Positions 12,243 to 30,298 of a stretch of 64,000 bases of DNA are shown here, piece by piece. The notes beneath the pieces are model-generated. The model did no database searches. It saw nothing but the letters and a program-made list of their open reading frames with translations, and was not told the DNA's origin. Positions within the stretch are counted from its first letter, which is position 1, and each line of letters starts with the position of its first letter. Position numbers and translations under genes: made by a program. Location of the stretch: the NCBI GenBank assembly GCA_002162095.1, contig CP021424.1, positions 1 through 64,000 on the forward strand, written 5' to 3'. The DNA is from Armatimonadetes bacterium Uphvl-Ar2. Lineage in GTDB: Bacteria; Armatimonadota; Fimbriimonadia; Fimbriimonadales; Fimbriimonadaceae.

Positions 12243-12398
12243 CCTCCCCGCACCATAGCCGAAGCCCGCTCCCCTTGTCAATCCGCGCATCCTCTCTTCT
12301 CCGCCCGGTACTCTGCACCGCATGCTCGTGGCTGCGCTCACCGGCTCCCTCCTCGCCCCGCAGTTCTTCTTCGAAGATGGCCAGGCCACCCTGCGCCG
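12243..12398 (+). repeat. Direct repeat copy A: truncated duplicate of promoter and 5' end of the gene at 13774
   Basis: About 156 bp matching 13694-13850 with only scattered mismatches. It includes the ATG (12322) and first codons MLVAALTGSLLAPQF. After GDGQATLRR-equivalent codons the match stops and the frame runs into unrelated sequence. The intact gene is at 13774, so this copy is a remnant. Confidence 0.85.
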
Positions 12399-13693: not shown

Positions 13694-13850
13694 CCTCCCC
13701 GCACCATAGCCGAAACCCGCGCCCCCTTGTCAATCCGCGCATCCTCTCTTCTCCGCCCGGTACTCTGCGCCGCATGCTCGTGGCTGCGCTCACCGGCTCG
13801 CTCCTCGCCCCGCAGTTCTCCTTCCAAGATGGCCAGGCCACCCTGCGCCG
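13694..13850 (+). repeat. Direct repeat copy B: intact promoter and start of the gene at 13774
   Basis: Partner of 12243-12398, spaced about 1.45 kb. The two copies share the sequence from the CCTCCCCGCACC block through the start codon to about the 26th codon. Copy B continues into the intact gene. It marks the border between the accessory zone and core chromosome. Confidence 0.85.
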
Positions 13851-21874: not shown

Positions 21875-22258
21875 TCACGGGCGAACGGCGATGCATTCGA
21901 TTTCGACGTCGACACCCTTCGGCAGACCGGCCACGGCCACCGTGCTACGGGCCGGCGGAGGGCTGGCCATGTGCCGCCCGTAGACTTCATTCACGGTGCC
22001 GAAGTGGTCCATGCTGCTGAGGAAGATCGTGGTCTTCACGATGTTCTCCATGCCCAAGCCCATGGCGCCCAGCAGGGCCTTGATGTTTTGGCAAACTTGT
22101 TCGGTCTGGGCTTCAATGCTGTCCATCACCAGTTCCCCTTCCGGCGTAAGCGGGATCGAGCCGCTGAGGAAAACCATGGTGCCCGAGGCGACGATGGCCT
22201 GGCTGTAAGGGCCGATGGCGGCGGGGGCGGCGGTGGTCGCAAAAGCTTCGCGATGCAT
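21875..22258 (-). CDS. ridA: RidA family enamine/imine deaminase
   Basis: 127 residues from the ATG at 22258 (MHREAFATTAAPAAIGPYSQ); a longer in-frame start would overlap the previous gene. Family blocks: IGPYSQAI, VFLSGSIPLTPEG, QTEQVCQNIKALL, TTIFLSSMDHFGTVNEVY, and PPPARSTVAVAGLPKGVDVE with the substrate-binding Arg. Deaminates reactive 2-aminoacrylate-type intermediates in the cytoplasm. A TAACCT hexamer lies 7 nt before the ATG. Confidence 0.9.
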   Translation of the reverse strand: MHREAFATTAAPAAIGPYSQAIVASGTMVFLSGSIPLTPEGELVMDSIEAQTEQVCQNIKALLGAMGLGMENIVKTTIFLSSMDHFGTVNEVYGRHMASPPPARSTVAVAGLPKGVDVEIECIAVRP

Positions 22259-22265
22259 GCCCCGC

Positions 22266-22271
22266 AGGTTA
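22266..22271 (-). promoter_or_regulatory. -10-like hexamer TAACCT, 7 nt before ridA ATG
   Basis: On the minus strand TAACCT is followed by seven bases and ATG. It fits the TANNNT pattern seen elsewhere in the window with spacing 6, and would give a leaderless or near-leaderless transcript. Confidence 0.35.
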
Positions 22272-23108
22272 CCGAAGACCGAGCCCGTGCGAGAGGCTTC
22301 TTGGTGCCACATGCAGCGAGCTAATGCTGGCCACGCCGTGGTTGGCCGTCACAATCTGGCCGATCACGCGCTCCACGCCGCCACCCAGGCTCACGCTCAC
22401 CTGGCCACCCGGAGTGATGTTGTAGCCCTGCACGCCTTTGCCCGCCCGGCCATCCGCAAAGCGGAGTCGCACTTCAGAGTGCTCTTGGTCTTGCTCTCGC
22501 AGACTGGTGAAATCCACCGTCATGCCCAGCGCCGGGCGATCCACGTCTGCCCAGAGCAATCCGACCTTGCCCGAGTGCCCCCCGATCAACTCGCCGGTGT
22601 GGCCATCAAACACCCACTGCCCCTTGCCCCCCAGCACCTTGGGCGGGATGGGGTTTCGGTCGGCGGCAAAGAAGTACGACCACGTGCGCAGCTGCGAGTG
22701 CTCGACGATCATCAGCGCCAACGTGCTCACGGTGCCCTCATGATCAAAGACCCGAAAGACGTGCTCGAACATATGGAACCGCGTCGTGGCCAAAGTCCGA
22801 GTCGGCAAGCTGCCAAAGAACTCGATGTGAGTGGTGGCTTCTGCGCCAAACCGCCCCGTGGGTACGCGGAGTGGAGTTAAACGCTCGGGCGTCACGTCCG
22901 TACCCGCCTCGCCGTAGCAACCCAAAATCTGCGCCCCGCTCAGGAGGTCCATCAGAATGCCATCCGGGCCAACCCCCACCAATGCCTTGCGGAGCGGCAA
23001 AGCATGATCGTCCTTCATCCCCAGCAGCACACCCTGGGTCGGGGTGACTTCAAAGCGCAGCAAACCGAGCGCGCCTTGGGTGGTGAGAGCGAAATCGGGG
23101 ACGGACAC
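22269..23108 (-). CDS. Flagellar hook D2-domain-like protein lacking terminal helices
   Basis: 279 residues. Its middle part follows the layout of the FlgE D2 (FlaE) domain: FRVFDHEGTVSTLALMIVEH, WSYFFAADRN, GQWVFDGHTGELIGG, a short VDF strand, then YNITPGGQVSVSLGGGVERV, matching FlgE phrases such as YSVGTDGVITG and GLTRSLGQIA. It lacks the N-terminal NxxNxLAN and C-terminal polymerisation helices of rod/hook subunits and has no signal peptide. It lies 97 bp downstream of flgE. It may be a hook accessory, cap or chaperone-like protein; this is inference. Confidence 0.55.
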   Translation of the reverse strand: MSVPDFALTTQGALGLLRFEVTPTQGVLLGMKDDHALPLRKALVGVGPDGILMDLLSGAQILGCYGEAGTDVTPERLTPLRVPTGRFGAEATTHIEFFGSLPTRTLATTRFHMFEHVFRVFDHEGTVSTLALMIVEHSQLRTWSYFFAADRNPIPPKVLGGKGQWVFDGHTGELIGGHSGKVGLLWADVDRPALGMTVDFTSLREQDQEHSEVRLRFADGRAGKGVQGYNITPGGQVSVSLGGGVERVIGQIVTANHGVASISSLHVAPRSLSHGLGLR

Positions 23109-23205
23109 GCCCCTTTTCCTCGCAATTGATGTGCCAAAGCCCCGCGGAGTGCCCCAAGGACACCCCGCCGGGCAAAAGAACTCCCTATAAGCTCAAGGAG
23201 CGCGA

Positions 23206-24456
23206 TTAGCGCTTCATGCTGATGAGGTCTTGCAGCATTTCGTCCACCGTGGTGACGACCCGCGTATTGGCCTGGAAGCCACGCTGTGTCACGATCAGGT
23301 CGGTGAATTCCGTCCCGATGTCCACGTTGGATTGCTCCAAGAAGCCCGCGTTCAATTGGCCTCGGCCACCGCTACGCGGTGCACCGATGACCGGCACCCC
23401 GGAGTTATCCGTGTTGCGATACAGGTTACTGCCCTGTCGCTCCAGGCCACCCGGGTTGGAGAAGATCGCCATAGCTATCTGCCCCAGGGAGCGAGTGAGA
23501 CCGTTGGTGTAGATGCCAGTGATGACGCCGTCGGTACCCACGCTGTAGTTTTGCAGAGAACCCGGAGCGTAACCGTTCTGATTGGCGGCCTGGATTTGCA
23601 TATCGGTGGCCAACTGGCTAAATGCCGAGAAGTCCATGTCCACATCAAAGGCGGGCACACCCGAGGCCGGGGGCGGCGTAAACGTGGCCGTGCCGGTGGA
23701 ACCGGAAAGGATCGTGCCATCGGTCGGATCAAAGGTCAACGTGCCCGAACCCGTCGCGGTCAAGGTCGTGCCCGCCACGCTCCAGTTCCACGTGTTCGGC
23801 GTCGCGCCTTCGGTCAGCGTCACCGTCACGTCGTGCGCACCGCCCAGCGGGTCGTAAACACGCACCAGTGAAGACGTGGTGGCCGTACCGGCTCGGTTGA
23901 ACTCTCGAGAGTCCAGATTCCCAGCCCAGGTCACTTCAGTGGTCTGCTGCACAGCGGTGCGCTGCCCAATCGGAATCTGGAGGGCACTGGATTCGCCCAC
24001 CGGGGCGTTTGTGTCAATGGTGCCATCCACCGGATTCGCCGACCAACCCAGTAGGCGTTCGCCCGTCGAGCGGTGTACCAAGAAGCCATTGGCGTCCAAG
24101 TCAAACGTGCCGTCCCGAGTGTAGGCAATGCGGTCGCCATTGCTGACGGCAAAGAATCCGTTGCCCTGGATCGCAAAGTCGGTTTGGCGGTTCGTGGCGT
24201 TTAGGCTTCCCTGTTCCATATTGGCGTCGGTGCCGCTGGAGAGAACCCCGAGACCGTACTGGACGGGGTTGAGACCCCCGCGGCTTTCGGTCGGGCGCGT
24301 GGCCCCCCGCACCGTCTGGGCCATCATGTCGGTGAACGACACGCGGGTGCCCTTGTAGGCCGTCGTATTCACGTTGGCCAGGTTGTTCCCGATCACGTTC
24401 ATGCGCGTTTGTTGCGCTTTGATACTGGCAACGCCAGAAAGCATGGCTTGTAGCAT
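23206..24456 (-). CDS. flgE: Flagellar hook protein FlgE
   Basis: 416 residues. N-terminal MLQAMLSGVASIKAQQTRMN with VIGNNLANVNTTAYKG (rod/hook D0 signature); DFAIQGNGFFAVSNGDRIAY; D2 region with VRVYDPLGGAHDVTVTLTEG; C-terminal EQSNVDIGTEFTDLIVTQRG and ANTRVVTTVDEMLQDLISMK. Assembles the universal joint outside the cell after export by the flagellar type III system. It follows fliK, flgD and the TIGR02530-type gene, the usual hook-operon order. Confidence 0.95.
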   Translation of the reverse strand: MLQAMLSGVASIKAQQTRMNVIGNNLANVNTTAYKGTRVSFTDMMAQTVRGATRPTESRGGLNPVQYGLGVLSSGTDANMEQGSLNATNRQTDFAIQGNGFFAVSNGDRIAYTRDGTFDLDANGFLVHRSTGERLLGWSANPVDGTIDTNAPVGESSALQIPIGQRTAVQQTTEVTWAGNLDSREFNRAGTATTSSLVRVYDPLGGAHDVTVTLTEGATPNTWNWSVAGTTLTATGSGTLTFDPTDGTILSGSTGTATFTPPPASGVPAFDVDMDFSAFSQLATDMQIQAANQNGYAPGSLQNYSVGTDGVITGIYTNGLTRSLGQIAMAIFSNPGGLERQGSNLYRNTDNSGVPVIGAPRSGGRGQLNAGFLEQSNVDIGTEFTDLIVTQRGFQANTRVVTTVDEMLQDLISMKR

Positions 24457-25005: not shown

Positions 25006-25416
25006 TTAGTTCTTCACTTGCTGGACGTGCTTCAGCTGGATTTCGACGCTGCCACCCTTGGCTTCTTCAACCACGAGGTAGGGGTCGCCATCGCGCACCA
25101 GGACCTTGGTGACCTTGCCTTCTAGCAGGTCCACCTTGTAGCTATCCTTGGTATCGGGGCGCACGGCCACCACGGTTTTGCCGAGGTAGGAGTTGGCCTG
25201 CTGCATGTCCACGCTGGTCTGCAGCTTGCCGAGGCCGTCCACCTGACCGAGTTGCGCGATCTGCGCAAACATCTCCGCATCCTTCATCGGGTCCAGCGGG
25301 TTTTGGGTGGACAGTTGCACGGTCAGGAGCCGAATGAAGGTTTCGGTGTTGAATTCACTTCGTCCTTTCTGGTTCGGGTTCCTGAATCCGTTCATTTGAG
25401 TGACGGGATCGATCAT
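25006..25416 (-). CDS. flgD: Flagellar hook assembly scaffold FlgD
   Basis: 136 residues from the ATG at 25416, 4 nt after the fliK stop; a longer frame would read back into fliK. The family signature is present: FIRLLTVQLSTQNPLDPMKD, AEMFAQIAQLGQVDGLGKLQ and SYLGKTVVAV. The protein is short and ends after a small beta region (KVTKVLVRDGDPYLVVEE), lacking the Tudor/Fn3 domains of enterobacterial FlgD, as in many Gram-positive and deep-branching forms. Caps the growing hook. Confidence 0.9.
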   Translation of the reverse strand: MIDPVTQMNGFRNPNQKGRSEFNTETFIRLLTVQLSTQNPLDPMKDAEMFAQIAQLGQVDGLGKLQTSVDMQQANSYLGKTVVAVRPDTKDSYKVDLLEGKVTKVLVRDGDPYLVVEEAKGGSVEIQLKHVQQVKN

Positions 25417-25420
25417 GTTC

Positions 25421-26740
25421 TTAGAGGCGGGTATCCAACCCGAGGGTCGAGGCCGTAGCGGGGCTCGGCGTAGATTCGTAGGTGTCTCCCAGGCGGCTTG
25501 CATCGCCAAGGTAAGAGCTGGGGCCAGAATCCGAGAATCTTTGGCCACCAAACGATGGGTTCTGTTGGCTGGCTCCGTCTTGGCCCACATTGAAGTCCAT
25601 GAGCGAGAAGCCCTTGCTTTCAATGCGCTGGGCCAGTTCCGGGCGCTGTTGCATCAGGGCCGCTGCCAGGCGCTGATCGTTGGTTTGGATATCAGTTTTC
25701 ACCTGATTCCCTTCCACATTCAGCAGGATATTGACATCACCAAAAGCTTCGGTCGCCAATCGAATCGTGATCGTGCCGGCATGGCGAGCGGTGAGAGCAT
25801 TCTCCAGTCGTTCGGCCACCTGACGGATGACTTGGTGCCGATCATTTGAATTTTGAAGGTCAATCGATGCTGTTTGTTCGGTTTCCGATGCATTCGCGGT
25901 TGCCTTCACCATCGTGGCATCGCCGATCATCGGTGTAGCCAGGTCAGGGTCATCACCCGACTCACCCGGATTGCCGGCTCCGAACTCCATGCCACCACTA
26001 GCATCAGCGTTGGCGGCTAGAGCTCCGGCCACGGCTTGATTCGCGATCGGGGTACCGGTGTTGTTCCCACCTTGCGTTGCGGGCTTCAGTGCTTCCGGCG
26101 TCACCTCCGTGACGGGCTTATCCGCATAGGTAACTTGCAGAACGGAAACGCCCTGCGGAGACTTGAGGTTTACGGCGGACGGATCCGCATCTGCGTTCGG
26201 GGTCGGTTGGGCCGGGGAGCCCGTGAGGACTTCGCCAACCTCAACCTCCGTCAGAGCTTCCGCACTGGCATTGGCCGCAATGTTGGCTTGAGGCACCGCA
26301 ACCGGAGCAACATCCGGTGCCACCATTTGCGAAACGACGGCAGAAGAAATCGGAAGGGCTGCCGTGGTCAACGGCGCGACAGTAGACGTCGTGGTACTCG
26401 TCCACACCGCCAGGTCAGCCGTCGAAGGCATGCGCGGGTCTTGGCCGCCCCATGGCAACGGGACCAGACCAAGCGGGTCCAACAACGGATGCGCGACGCC
26501 CCCCTCTCCGGGTTCTTCACTAGCCAGGGTCTCCGCCGATGGCGTCTCGCCTTCCGGACTCTGGGCCAGCTTGCTATCGGGGTCAACTTCAGGACCCTGA
26601 TTCGCTTCCAGAGCGTGTCGGACCGATTTCTCATCCAGGACTTGTTCAAAGTCCGGCTTCGAGCTCGTATCTCGACTTTCCGGGAGGGGACTTACCTCGG
26701 CCTTGACCCCCAAAATCGGGTTCAAAGCAACGCTCGTCAT
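25421..26740 (-). CDS. fliK: Flagellar hook-length control protein FliK
   Basis: 439 residues. A long, low-complexity Ala/Thr/Pro/Val-rich N-terminal ruler region is followed by a FliK C-terminal domain (about residues 305-385): VAERLENALTARHAGTITIR, EAFGDVNILLNVEGNQVKTD and RPELAQRIESKGFSL. The tail is Ser/Gly-rich. First gene of the hook operon; an AGGAGG-like GGAGG lies 16 nt before the ATG. Confidence 0.85.
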   Translation of the reverse strand: MTSVALNPILGVKAEVSPLPESRDTSSKPDFEQVLDEKSVRHALEANQGPEVDPDSKLAQSPEGETPSAETLASEEPGEGGVAHPLLDPLGLVPLPWGGQDPRMPSTADLAVWTSTTTSTVAPLTTAALPISSAVVSQMVAPDVAPVAVPQANIAANASAEALTEVEVGEVLTGSPAQPTPNADADPSAVNLKSPQGVSVLQVTYADKPVTEVTPEALKPATQGGNNTGTPIANQAVAGALAANADASGGMEFGAGNPGESGDDPDLATPMIGDATMVKATANASETEQTASIDLQNSNDRHQVIRQVAERLENALTARHAGTITIRLATEAFGDVNILLNVEGNQVKTDIQTNDQRLAAALMQQRPELAQRIESKGFSLMDFNVGQDGASQQNPSFGGQRFSDSGPSSYLGDASRLGDTYESTPSPATASTLGLDTRL

Positions 26741-26885: not shown

Positions 26886-29800
26886 ATGCGCAAGGCGACA
26901 CAAATGGCCCGGAAAACAAAGCAGGACGCGACCCCCACGAATTTATCGACCCCCACTGACCCGACACCAAACCCCGAAGAGTCAACCGAAACGAAACCCG
27001 CCCGGCGCACGCGCCGCCCACCCAGCGATGAAATCACCATCGAGCCGGTGGCTAAGCCGCGTCGAGGGCGAACCCCTAAAGCGAAGGCCGAGCCCGAAGC
27101 CGTGGCTGAGGCCGCTCCGGTAGCCGCCGCCCCGGCCAAATCTCGCCGGGCGAGCGCCAAGAGTGCGACCAAGCCCGAACCGGAAGTGACCGAAAGCGCC
27201 CCGGCCGCCAAGCCGACCCGCGGACGCGCCAAGGCGCCCGCCCCGGAAACGAAGGAAGTAGAAACCACCGCCAAGGCGGCCAAGGCCACCATGGCTCCCG
27301 CGCGTCGCACGGCAAAGACGGCGAAAGCGCCGACCAGCGAACCCTCCGCATTTCTGGAATCGCTCGGCTTTGCCGGTCTTTCCTGGCGACCCAAGTCGGC
27401 TGGCCCCGTGCCCACCGACGCGGACGAATCCACGACCGAAGCTCTGGCTGAGGGCGATACCGAGACGGAAAGCAAGCCCAGTGCGCGCAACGAGCGCCAG
27501 CGGGGACGCAACCGCCGGAGCCGACGCAACGATGCGCCTTCGGAAGAAGTGACGCAGGACGCAGCGCCGACCGACGAGGACACCTCCGAGGAGGCTAAGC
27601 CCGCCGCCCGAACCGACAACCGCGAGGACAAGGAACGACGCGGCCGCCGCAACCGACGCCAAGAAGAACCCAAGGACACCGATACCGACGCCCCCGAAGC
27701 CAGCGACGAAGAAGCGCCGGCCCGCCCGAGGGCCCGGTTCCGCGAACGCCCGGCCCCAAGGCCGCCGTGGTGGCTCCGCCCGAACCGGTGGTACCGGTCC
27801 GCGAACCCATCGCCATCCCGCTGGATGCCCCGCAAGTCGTGGTCCGCGATGGCGTGCCCATCCTCACTAAGAATCAAAAGGCCCTCGCGCCGCACTTCTT
27901 CTTCGCCGCCGCCCTCGAGCCCAAGCGACTCGAAACGGTGAAGGAAGAGATCAAACTGGCCGCCGAACACGGCACCCACCTGATCTCGCTGCTGGTGGAG
28001 CTCGAAGTCAGCGAAGCCATGGTGGACGATGCCGTCTCGATGGCCGCCTACCTACTCAAGCAAGTCACCGAGGTCAACCCGCAGGCGCTAGTGCAGTTCC
28101 GTGTGGCCTTTGTGGCGCCCAAAGACTGGGAGAAGACGTACAAGAACGCCCGGTTTATTGGCGAAGACGGCATGTTGGCCGACCCGAGTGTCAGCGACGA
28201 CGCCTTCTGGAACGACGCCGAGGACTGCCTCGCTCGCTTCATCCGCAAGCTCCGCAAGATGCCATTTGCCGACCATGTGCTGGGCATCCACCTGGAGCGC
28301 GGCGAGTGGTTCTTCCCCACCGACGGCGGCTATGACAACTCCATCTCCTCCACCGAGAAGTTCCGCCAGTGGCTGCGCGCCCGCTACCGCAACGATGTGG
28401 TGACCCTGCGCGCCTCGTGGTTCGATGGCAGTGCCGATTTCGACACAGTTCAGATCCCGCCGATGACCGAGCGGCGCAGCCTAGAAGAAACCTTCGTTCG
28501 CACCGACCGCAAGTCGCGGCGCTGGGTGGATTACCACCTGTTCCTCAGCGACACCACGCACGAGCGGATTACCAACTTGGCCTACTGCGTCAAGAAGGAA
28601 TCCGAAGGCACCTACCTAGTCGGCGTTAGCTACGGCTACACCTTCGAGTGGTCGCACCCCTACAGTGGCCACCTGTCCCTCGGCAAGCTTCTCCGCTGTG
28701 CCGATGTGGACTACATCGCCGGCCCGCCGAGCCACGAAAGTCGGCTTCCGGGCGCCCTGGCGGCCTTCCCCGGCCCGATGGACAGCTTCGCCCTCAATGG
28801 CAAGCTCGCCCTCTCGGAAGAGGATTACAAGACGCCGATCAGCGGCCGCGAAGAGCCAGACTCCTACAACCCGGTCATCAAGACGCCGCAGGCGCTTGAG
28901 AACGTCCACTGGCGCGGTGCCGGCCTCACGCTGGCCCACGGTGGCGGCAACGTTTGGATGGACACCTGGGGCAACGGCTGGCTCAACAGCCCGGGCATCT
29001 GGGCGCGGGCGGAGAAGATTCAGGCCGCGCAGCGCATGCGCATGCAGGCTCCGATGACGGCCCCGGATGTCGCGTTGCTCATTGACGAGCGTTCACTCGC
29101 TTACCTTGCCGACCGCGAAGCTTTTGACGACCTGGTGAAGCAAGTGCGCGAGTCCTTGCTCCGCTCGGGCCTCAGCGTGGGTTGCTACCTCATCAGTGAC
29201 CTCGCCCACCGCGAAAACTTCCCCGAAAGTCGCCTCTACGTCTTCGTGAATGCGTGGGATGTGCGGCCCGAAGTCCGCAGTGCCATCAAGTCGCGCCTGC
29301 AGCGCGACAACAAGGTCCTTTTCTGGCTCTACGCGGCTGGCCTCTTCGAAGCCGGACGCGAAAGCCTGGAACGAGCGCGCGAAATCACCGGCATCGCCAT
29401 TCGCCCGCAGCCGTTCGCCAGCCGCAGCGGCACCACGCTCCTCAACACCCGTGAACCCCTGTGCCAAGCCCTGGACGAGCGCAAGCTTGCCGAAGGCGGC
29501 ACGCTATCGCCGAGTTACTTCGCCATCCCCGAGGTTGGTGTGTTGCTGGGTGAATACAGTTCCACGGGTCTCCCCAGCTTTGTGGTCAGCCCGTTCGATG
29601 AGGACCCGGACCGCAGCAAGCACTGGCTGTCCGTCTTCCTTGGCGAACCGATCGTTAGCCCGGCTCTGTTCCGCGAACTCGGTACCATCGCCGGCGCCCA
29701 CGTTTGGTCCTTCGATGACGACGTGATTTGGGCTCGCCCGCCATTCCTCACCATCCACGCCAAGGGCACCGGCCCGCGCACCATTGCGCTGCCGGACCAG

Positions 29801-30298
29801 TGGTCGGCTTACAACCTGGTCAGCAACGAATGGGTGACCGTGGAGAACCACGCCGTGCGCTTCCATGCGCTCGATGGCCACACCTACTCGTTCCTGGTCG
29901 GCATGCGCGGCGATATCGAAGCCTTGCTGAAGGGTGCTAACGATGGAGACGACGCCGTGGACGTGCAAACGCTGCGCGCCAACCAACCGGGTCACGCCAA
30001 TGCCATGGACCTCGACGTGCCGATCATGCAACTCGGCGAATGGGTGGAGGAAACCTGGAGCGAAGACCTGGCCGATGACTTCCTGCTGAAACCGTCGTTC
30101 CTGGAAATTGACCGACGCCAGGAAGAAGCCATCGCCATCCAAGATGAGATGGACCCCGACCGCCGGCGACGCAACAACCGTCGCAACCGACGCAACCGGG
30201 GCGGCCAAGAAGAAGGCACTCGACGTGGACGAGAGGGCGCGGATCGTCAAGAGGCCGAACCGGATTCGATCAACGTGTTCTTCCGCAAGCGAGACTAA
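26886..30298 (+). CDS. GH42-like protein with RNase E-like basic/acidic low-complexity tails
   Basis: About 1,137 residues once a one-base break near 27745 is restored (one C added makes RERPGPKAAVVAPPEPVVPV continuous). Residues 1-290 are a K/R/A/P/E-rich disordered region (TKSARRTRRPPSDE-like, QRGRNRRSRRND, RRGRRNRRQEE). The core has a TIM-barrel glycosidase style of family 42/5: HFFFAAALEPKRLETVKEEI, GIHLERGEWFF, EKFRQWLRARYRNDVVTLRA, SYGYTFEWSHPYSGHLS, and a Rossmann-like C-terminal half (DVALLIDERSLAYL, LYVFVNAWDV). A second R/N/G-rich tail (DRRRRNNRRNRRNRGG) ends it. No signal peptide. The gene ends 3 nt before era. Confidence 0.6.

Follow-up and report, generated by a model that had tools for sequence, protein, structure and literature searches.

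The closest described relative of the protein studied here, which we call X, is the flagellar hook protein FlgE (Pfam domains PF00460, PF22692, PF07559 and PF06429): the two genes are adjacent and the proteins are homologous in D1 and D2 over FlgE residues 98-332, but X lacks FlgE residues 1-97 and 333-416 as well as the docking motif, and differs in composition and in its pattern of conservation. FlgE31, a core fragment of Salmonella FlgE with a crystal structure (PDB 1wlg), has a similar extent, with X residues 17-261 aligning to 1wlg 71-346; it is, however, a laboratory fragment, whereas X is a separate natural gene whose product is about 20-30% identical to FlgE. FlgE2 of Helicobacter pylori (PDB 5npy) is, like X, a second FlgE-like protein and a structural match to the X model, but its chain is longer (472 residues in the structure) and X aligns to it over 220 residues. 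X represents a lineage-specific form of a protein already known. Second hook-type proteins, H. pylori FlgE2 among them, are known as well. The initial annotation could name no flagellar component of this form; we also found none, and no description of a core-only, truncated or second-FlgE counterpart of X, in the part of the open-access literature that was covered. The late-substrate flagellar chaperones FlgN, FliS and FliT are compared with X by a proposed analogy only, as cytosolic partners of exported axial proteins, and no sequence relation is claimed. Rod and hook subunits are unchaperoned, and their export requires an N-terminal hydrophobic signal and a gate recognition motif that lies at least 30 residues in (PMC8983047).

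The window, the whole stretch of 64,000 nucleotides of Armatimonadetes bacterium Uphvl-Ar2 that was analysed, carries on its minus strand and in this order fliK, flgD, a PF12611 gene, flgE, X and ridA. The genes for hook length control (fliK, 25421-26740), the hook cap (flgD, 25006-25416) and a putative flagellar protein (PF12611, 24617-25000) were assigned by Pfam, and flgE (23206-24456) encodes a complete hook protein of 416 amino acids that matches all four Pfam FlgE domains. X (22269-23108, minus strand) encodes 279 amino acids, has a GTG start and a TAA stop at 22271-22269, and is a paralogue of the FlgE D1-D2 core that lacks the terminal helices. It starts 97 nucleotides past the flgE stop, and this spacer (23109-23205, minus strand) carries GAGGAAAAGGGG, which resembles a ribosome-binding site, ahead of the GTG; a hairpin-like site in the interval is weak and within what chance would give. 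X ends 10 nucleotides ahead of the probable start of ridA (21875-22258, minus strand), its downstream neighbour in all three genomes that carry X. An opposite-strand open reading frame (22215-22880) was dropped as a gene, as homologues and selection were found only for the minus-strand frame.

Elsewhere in the window, a large plus-strand gene (26886-30298) that is one frame of 1130 amino acids in a sister genome (L054) is present as two overlapping frames; the change of frame, near 27749-27761, reflects either a genuine frameshift or an error in the sequencing. There is also a direct repeat of 157 bp (12243-12398 and 13694-13850, 95.5% identical), the upstream unit of which copies the start of the open reading frame at 13774 (MLVAALTGSLLAPQF...) beside an unrelated one and looks like a partial duplication.

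BLASTP aligns X to the neighbouring FlgE with 21% identity over 229 columns (E 1e-9), and a profile of the three X orthologues matches FlgE of sister genera with a best E of 2.6e-24. With hhalign, the three orthologues match 13 FlgEs of the family with a probability of 99.1 (E 4.4e-19), X residues 24-256 corresponding to FlgE residues 98-332, that is, to the first half of D1, D2 and the start of the second half of D1. Judged from these alignments, the relation of X to FlgE is beyond chance. Residues 24-82 (22863-23039, minus strand) are assigned to the first half of a D1-like beta domain by the profile alignment and a low-confidence model, residues 83-219 (22452-22862, minus strand) to a D2-like domain by the profile alignment and by a match of the low-confidence model to D2 of T. 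denticola FlgE (Z 6.7), and residues 220-256 (22341-22451, minus strand) to the second half of the D1-like domain by the profile alignment. The initial annotation had called X a D2-domain protein without polymerisation termini. D2 is indeed kept, but not D2 alone, as the profile alignment and the low-confidence model place both beta halves of D1 in X too; the absence of both terminal regions was borne out. In hhalign no X residues align to FlgE 1-97 and 333-416, which hold the helices of PF00460 and PF06429, and a Pfam scan of X returned zero matches, including none to Flg_bb_rod and Flg_bbr_C (both matched by FlgE), to PF07559 or to the FlgD N-terminal domain PF03963. The NCBIfam FlgE model does find X with an E of 6e-7, yet at 29 bits against a cut-off of 400 bits, and a PDB sequence search with X as sole query gave no credible match. 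The initial annotation was right in that X, encoded next to flgE, derives from FlgE and is unable to assemble like a hook subunit. As both the assembly ends and the recognised export signal are missing, the wall of the hook is hardly a place for X.

Structure prediction adds little to this. The model built from orthologues alone has a pLDDT of 36 and no significant Foldseek match (the best is FlgE 5ay6, E 0.35); with FlgE rows added, pLDDT rises only to 49 and the matches are FlgE and FlgG (E 2e-6, best Z 7.2). The best structural neighbours of this second model are solely FlgE and FlgG chains, D1 being matched by X 13-261 (Z 7.2) and D2 by X 89-219 (Z 6.7), but its input is partly circular and a Z below 8 is not decisive, and homology was therefore rested on the sequence profiles. 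A pLDDT of 36-49 is too low for the superposition that had been suggested to be reliable, and the models are consistent with a FlgE core and do not prove it. No fold unrelated to the hook protein was indicated: both the profiles and the structural matches of the model relate X to FlgE.

One genus carries X in each of its three genomes, always flanked by flgE and ridA, and profile searches of 85 family and 291 phylum genomes did not detect it in the other 82 and 288, respectively; the remaining matches were longer frames (FlgE where inspected) or frames truncated by an assembly gap or the end of a contig. A scan of named genomes came up with 'Chthonomonas sp. UBA2785' and 'Fimbriimonadaceae bacterium isolate ACE_ARM5', and these two records place X in the Fimbriimonadaceae, Armatimonadota. 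The survey of related genomes thus restricts X to a single genus, always in the order flgE-X-ridA, and every homologue found is in a genome with flgE. A PF07559 survey of the 291 phylum genomes gave no second core-only frame among the matches listed. One candidate for a core-only analogue, a short FlgE of genome G201 (L056, 2071-2913, a frame of 280 amino acids), was rejected: an assembly gap truncates the frame, which keeps its C-terminus. Across the Fimbriimonadaceae (L027-L052), the genes that occupy the position downstream of flgE, or that between flgE and ridA, differ between genera and are unrelated, so that the position looks like a variable insertion point.

The X orthologues of the two other genomes of the genus, at the same place and with open frames, are 94% and 39% identical to X, and this identity is unevenly spread. 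The most conserved segment, residues 156-202 (22503-22643, minus strand; PK.L.GKG..VFD..TG.L..GHSG[KR]VGLLWAD..RPA.G...DFTS), is 66% identical between the orthologues that share 39% overall, while FlgE reaches 55% there, and it includes an invariant motif, GHSG[KR]VGLLWAD, that is absent from FlgE. The first half of D1, in contrast, is only 24% identical in X between the divergent genomes (G000 and G002) and 66% in FlgE, which over the same pair is about equally conserved in this half and in D2 (65%). The comparison shown here points to a shift of constraint in X from D1 to one segment of D2. A role in the hook wall or as decoration would be expected to keep D1; a soluble binding role through D2 fits better.

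We tentatively favour the reading that X is a cytosolic, non-polymerising paralogue of the hook core, the D2 of which may bind a partner at the hook stage. An old copy of flgE, most simply a tandem duplicate, would have been stripped of the DNA for the two terminal (D0) regions, with the D1-D2 core retained. Encoded at the far end of the hook gene cluster, its product would remain cytoplasmic, since the signals for docking to the flagellar export gate and for opening it belong to the N-terminus that was lost. It would thus be a soluble look-alike of the hook subunit with a conserved D2 surface that contacts FlgE itself, FliK or FlgD, and this contact would tune the supply or the export of hook subunits. 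We infer that flgE was duplicated in place, that X is cytoplasmic, that it has such a partner and that it acts in a regulatory or chaperone-like way; perhaps X is a partner of hook-type export cargo. The wider idea, that a cytosolic mimic of the hook subunit (a flgE duplicate without the ends for assembly and export) serves the building of the hook as its dedicated partner or as an antagonist, is doubtful.

The main rival is that X was repurposed outside flagella, for example for ligand or protein binding via the conserved D2 segment, so that only its address is flagellar. This is unlikely, even if several features agree with it: in the tree X is nested among the family's FlgEs, with an unreliable branching point, on a very long stem of 2.3 substitutions per site; the invariant motif described above is new; and X is spaced more tightly to ridA than to flgE. 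Linkage to flgE is, however, kept in all three genomes, and no copy of X was found away from a flgE locus in the 85 family and 291 phylum genomes.

It is rather improbable that the flagellar apparatus exports X and that the protein is then located at the hook surface or within the hook, where it would serve as decoration, assist the cap or partner in length sensing. X keeps both D1 halves and D2, which are the outward parts of hook subunits, and is placed after fliK, flgD and flgE, but its first D1 half, the would-be contact to the hook lattice, is the poorly conserved part described above. The general form of the gate recognition (docking) motif is FxxxPhi, and non-canonical export signals exist. 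The four proteins of the hook cluster that were compared all have the motif, FlgE at residue 41 (FTDMM), FlgD at 27 (FIRLL), FliK at 31 (FEQVL) and the PF12611 protein at 38 (FATQL), whereas none of the three X orthologues has it within the first 80 residues, an absence that could be due to chance, since X has just two phenylalanines there. Composition differs as well: the core of X has an amino-acid synthesis cost of 22.8-23.6, against a mean of 20.84 for the same region of 30 FlgEs (sd 0.22, maximum 21.45), with FlgD, an exported protein, intermediate at 22.0. Lysine, arginine and histidine make up 12-14% of X cores and 3-6% of four FlgE cores (about two to four times as much in X), histidines number 7-9 in X and 1-3 in FlgE, and each X has one cysteine, while 29 of 30 full FlgE proteins have none. 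By these measures the composition of X is cytosol-like, resembling the cytosolic proteins of the window and outside the narrow range of the 30 FlgEs; expression level shapes composition too, so that this evidence for location is indirect. The missing motif, the cytosol-like composition and the move of conservation from D1 to the D2 segment together point to the inside of the cell and disfavour the roles outside it (cap, decoration, length sensor) considered in the initial annotation.

A decaying flgE duplicate of little function is a quite improbable alternative. X does diverge faster than FlgE, which is 96% and 72% identical over the species pairs for which X shares 94% and 39%, and in the close pair the dN/dS of X is three times that of flgE (0.133 and 0.044). 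A value of 0.133 is, however, well under 1, the frame is intact in all three species across a distance at which synonymous sites are saturated, and the D2 segment is better conserved in X than in FlgE. GC at the third codon position is like that of the neighbouring genes. X is a real gene under purifying selection, given its orthologues at the same place with open frames and its dN/dS.

In three relatives without X (G034, G026 and G061) only 91-103 nucleotides separate flgE from ridA, and therefore X was probably inserted between the two. Most simply, X would be a tandem duplicate of flgE that lost both ends. An origin without duplication in place, in which another Fimbriimonadaceae lineage donated an FlgE-like gene, already truncated, that integrated behind flgE, is very improbable: X scores 47 bits against FlgE of other genera and 29.5 bits against its own FlgE, and in the tree it groups with the FlgE of another genus (support 73), but the long stem makes this placement unreliable (long-branch attraction), adjacency to flgE is the expected product of tandem duplication, and no donor locus was found in the profile searches of 85 family and 291 phylum genomes.

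The restriction to one genus limits the reach of the finding. Within it, X is a natural case of an axial flagellar protein that is without its polymerising and export ends, yet under selection. If X is, as we tentatively favour, a cytosolic partner in hook assembly, it would be a regulator built from a structural subunit, and hook construction would gain a level of control at a stage that rod and hook subunits are believed to pass unaided.
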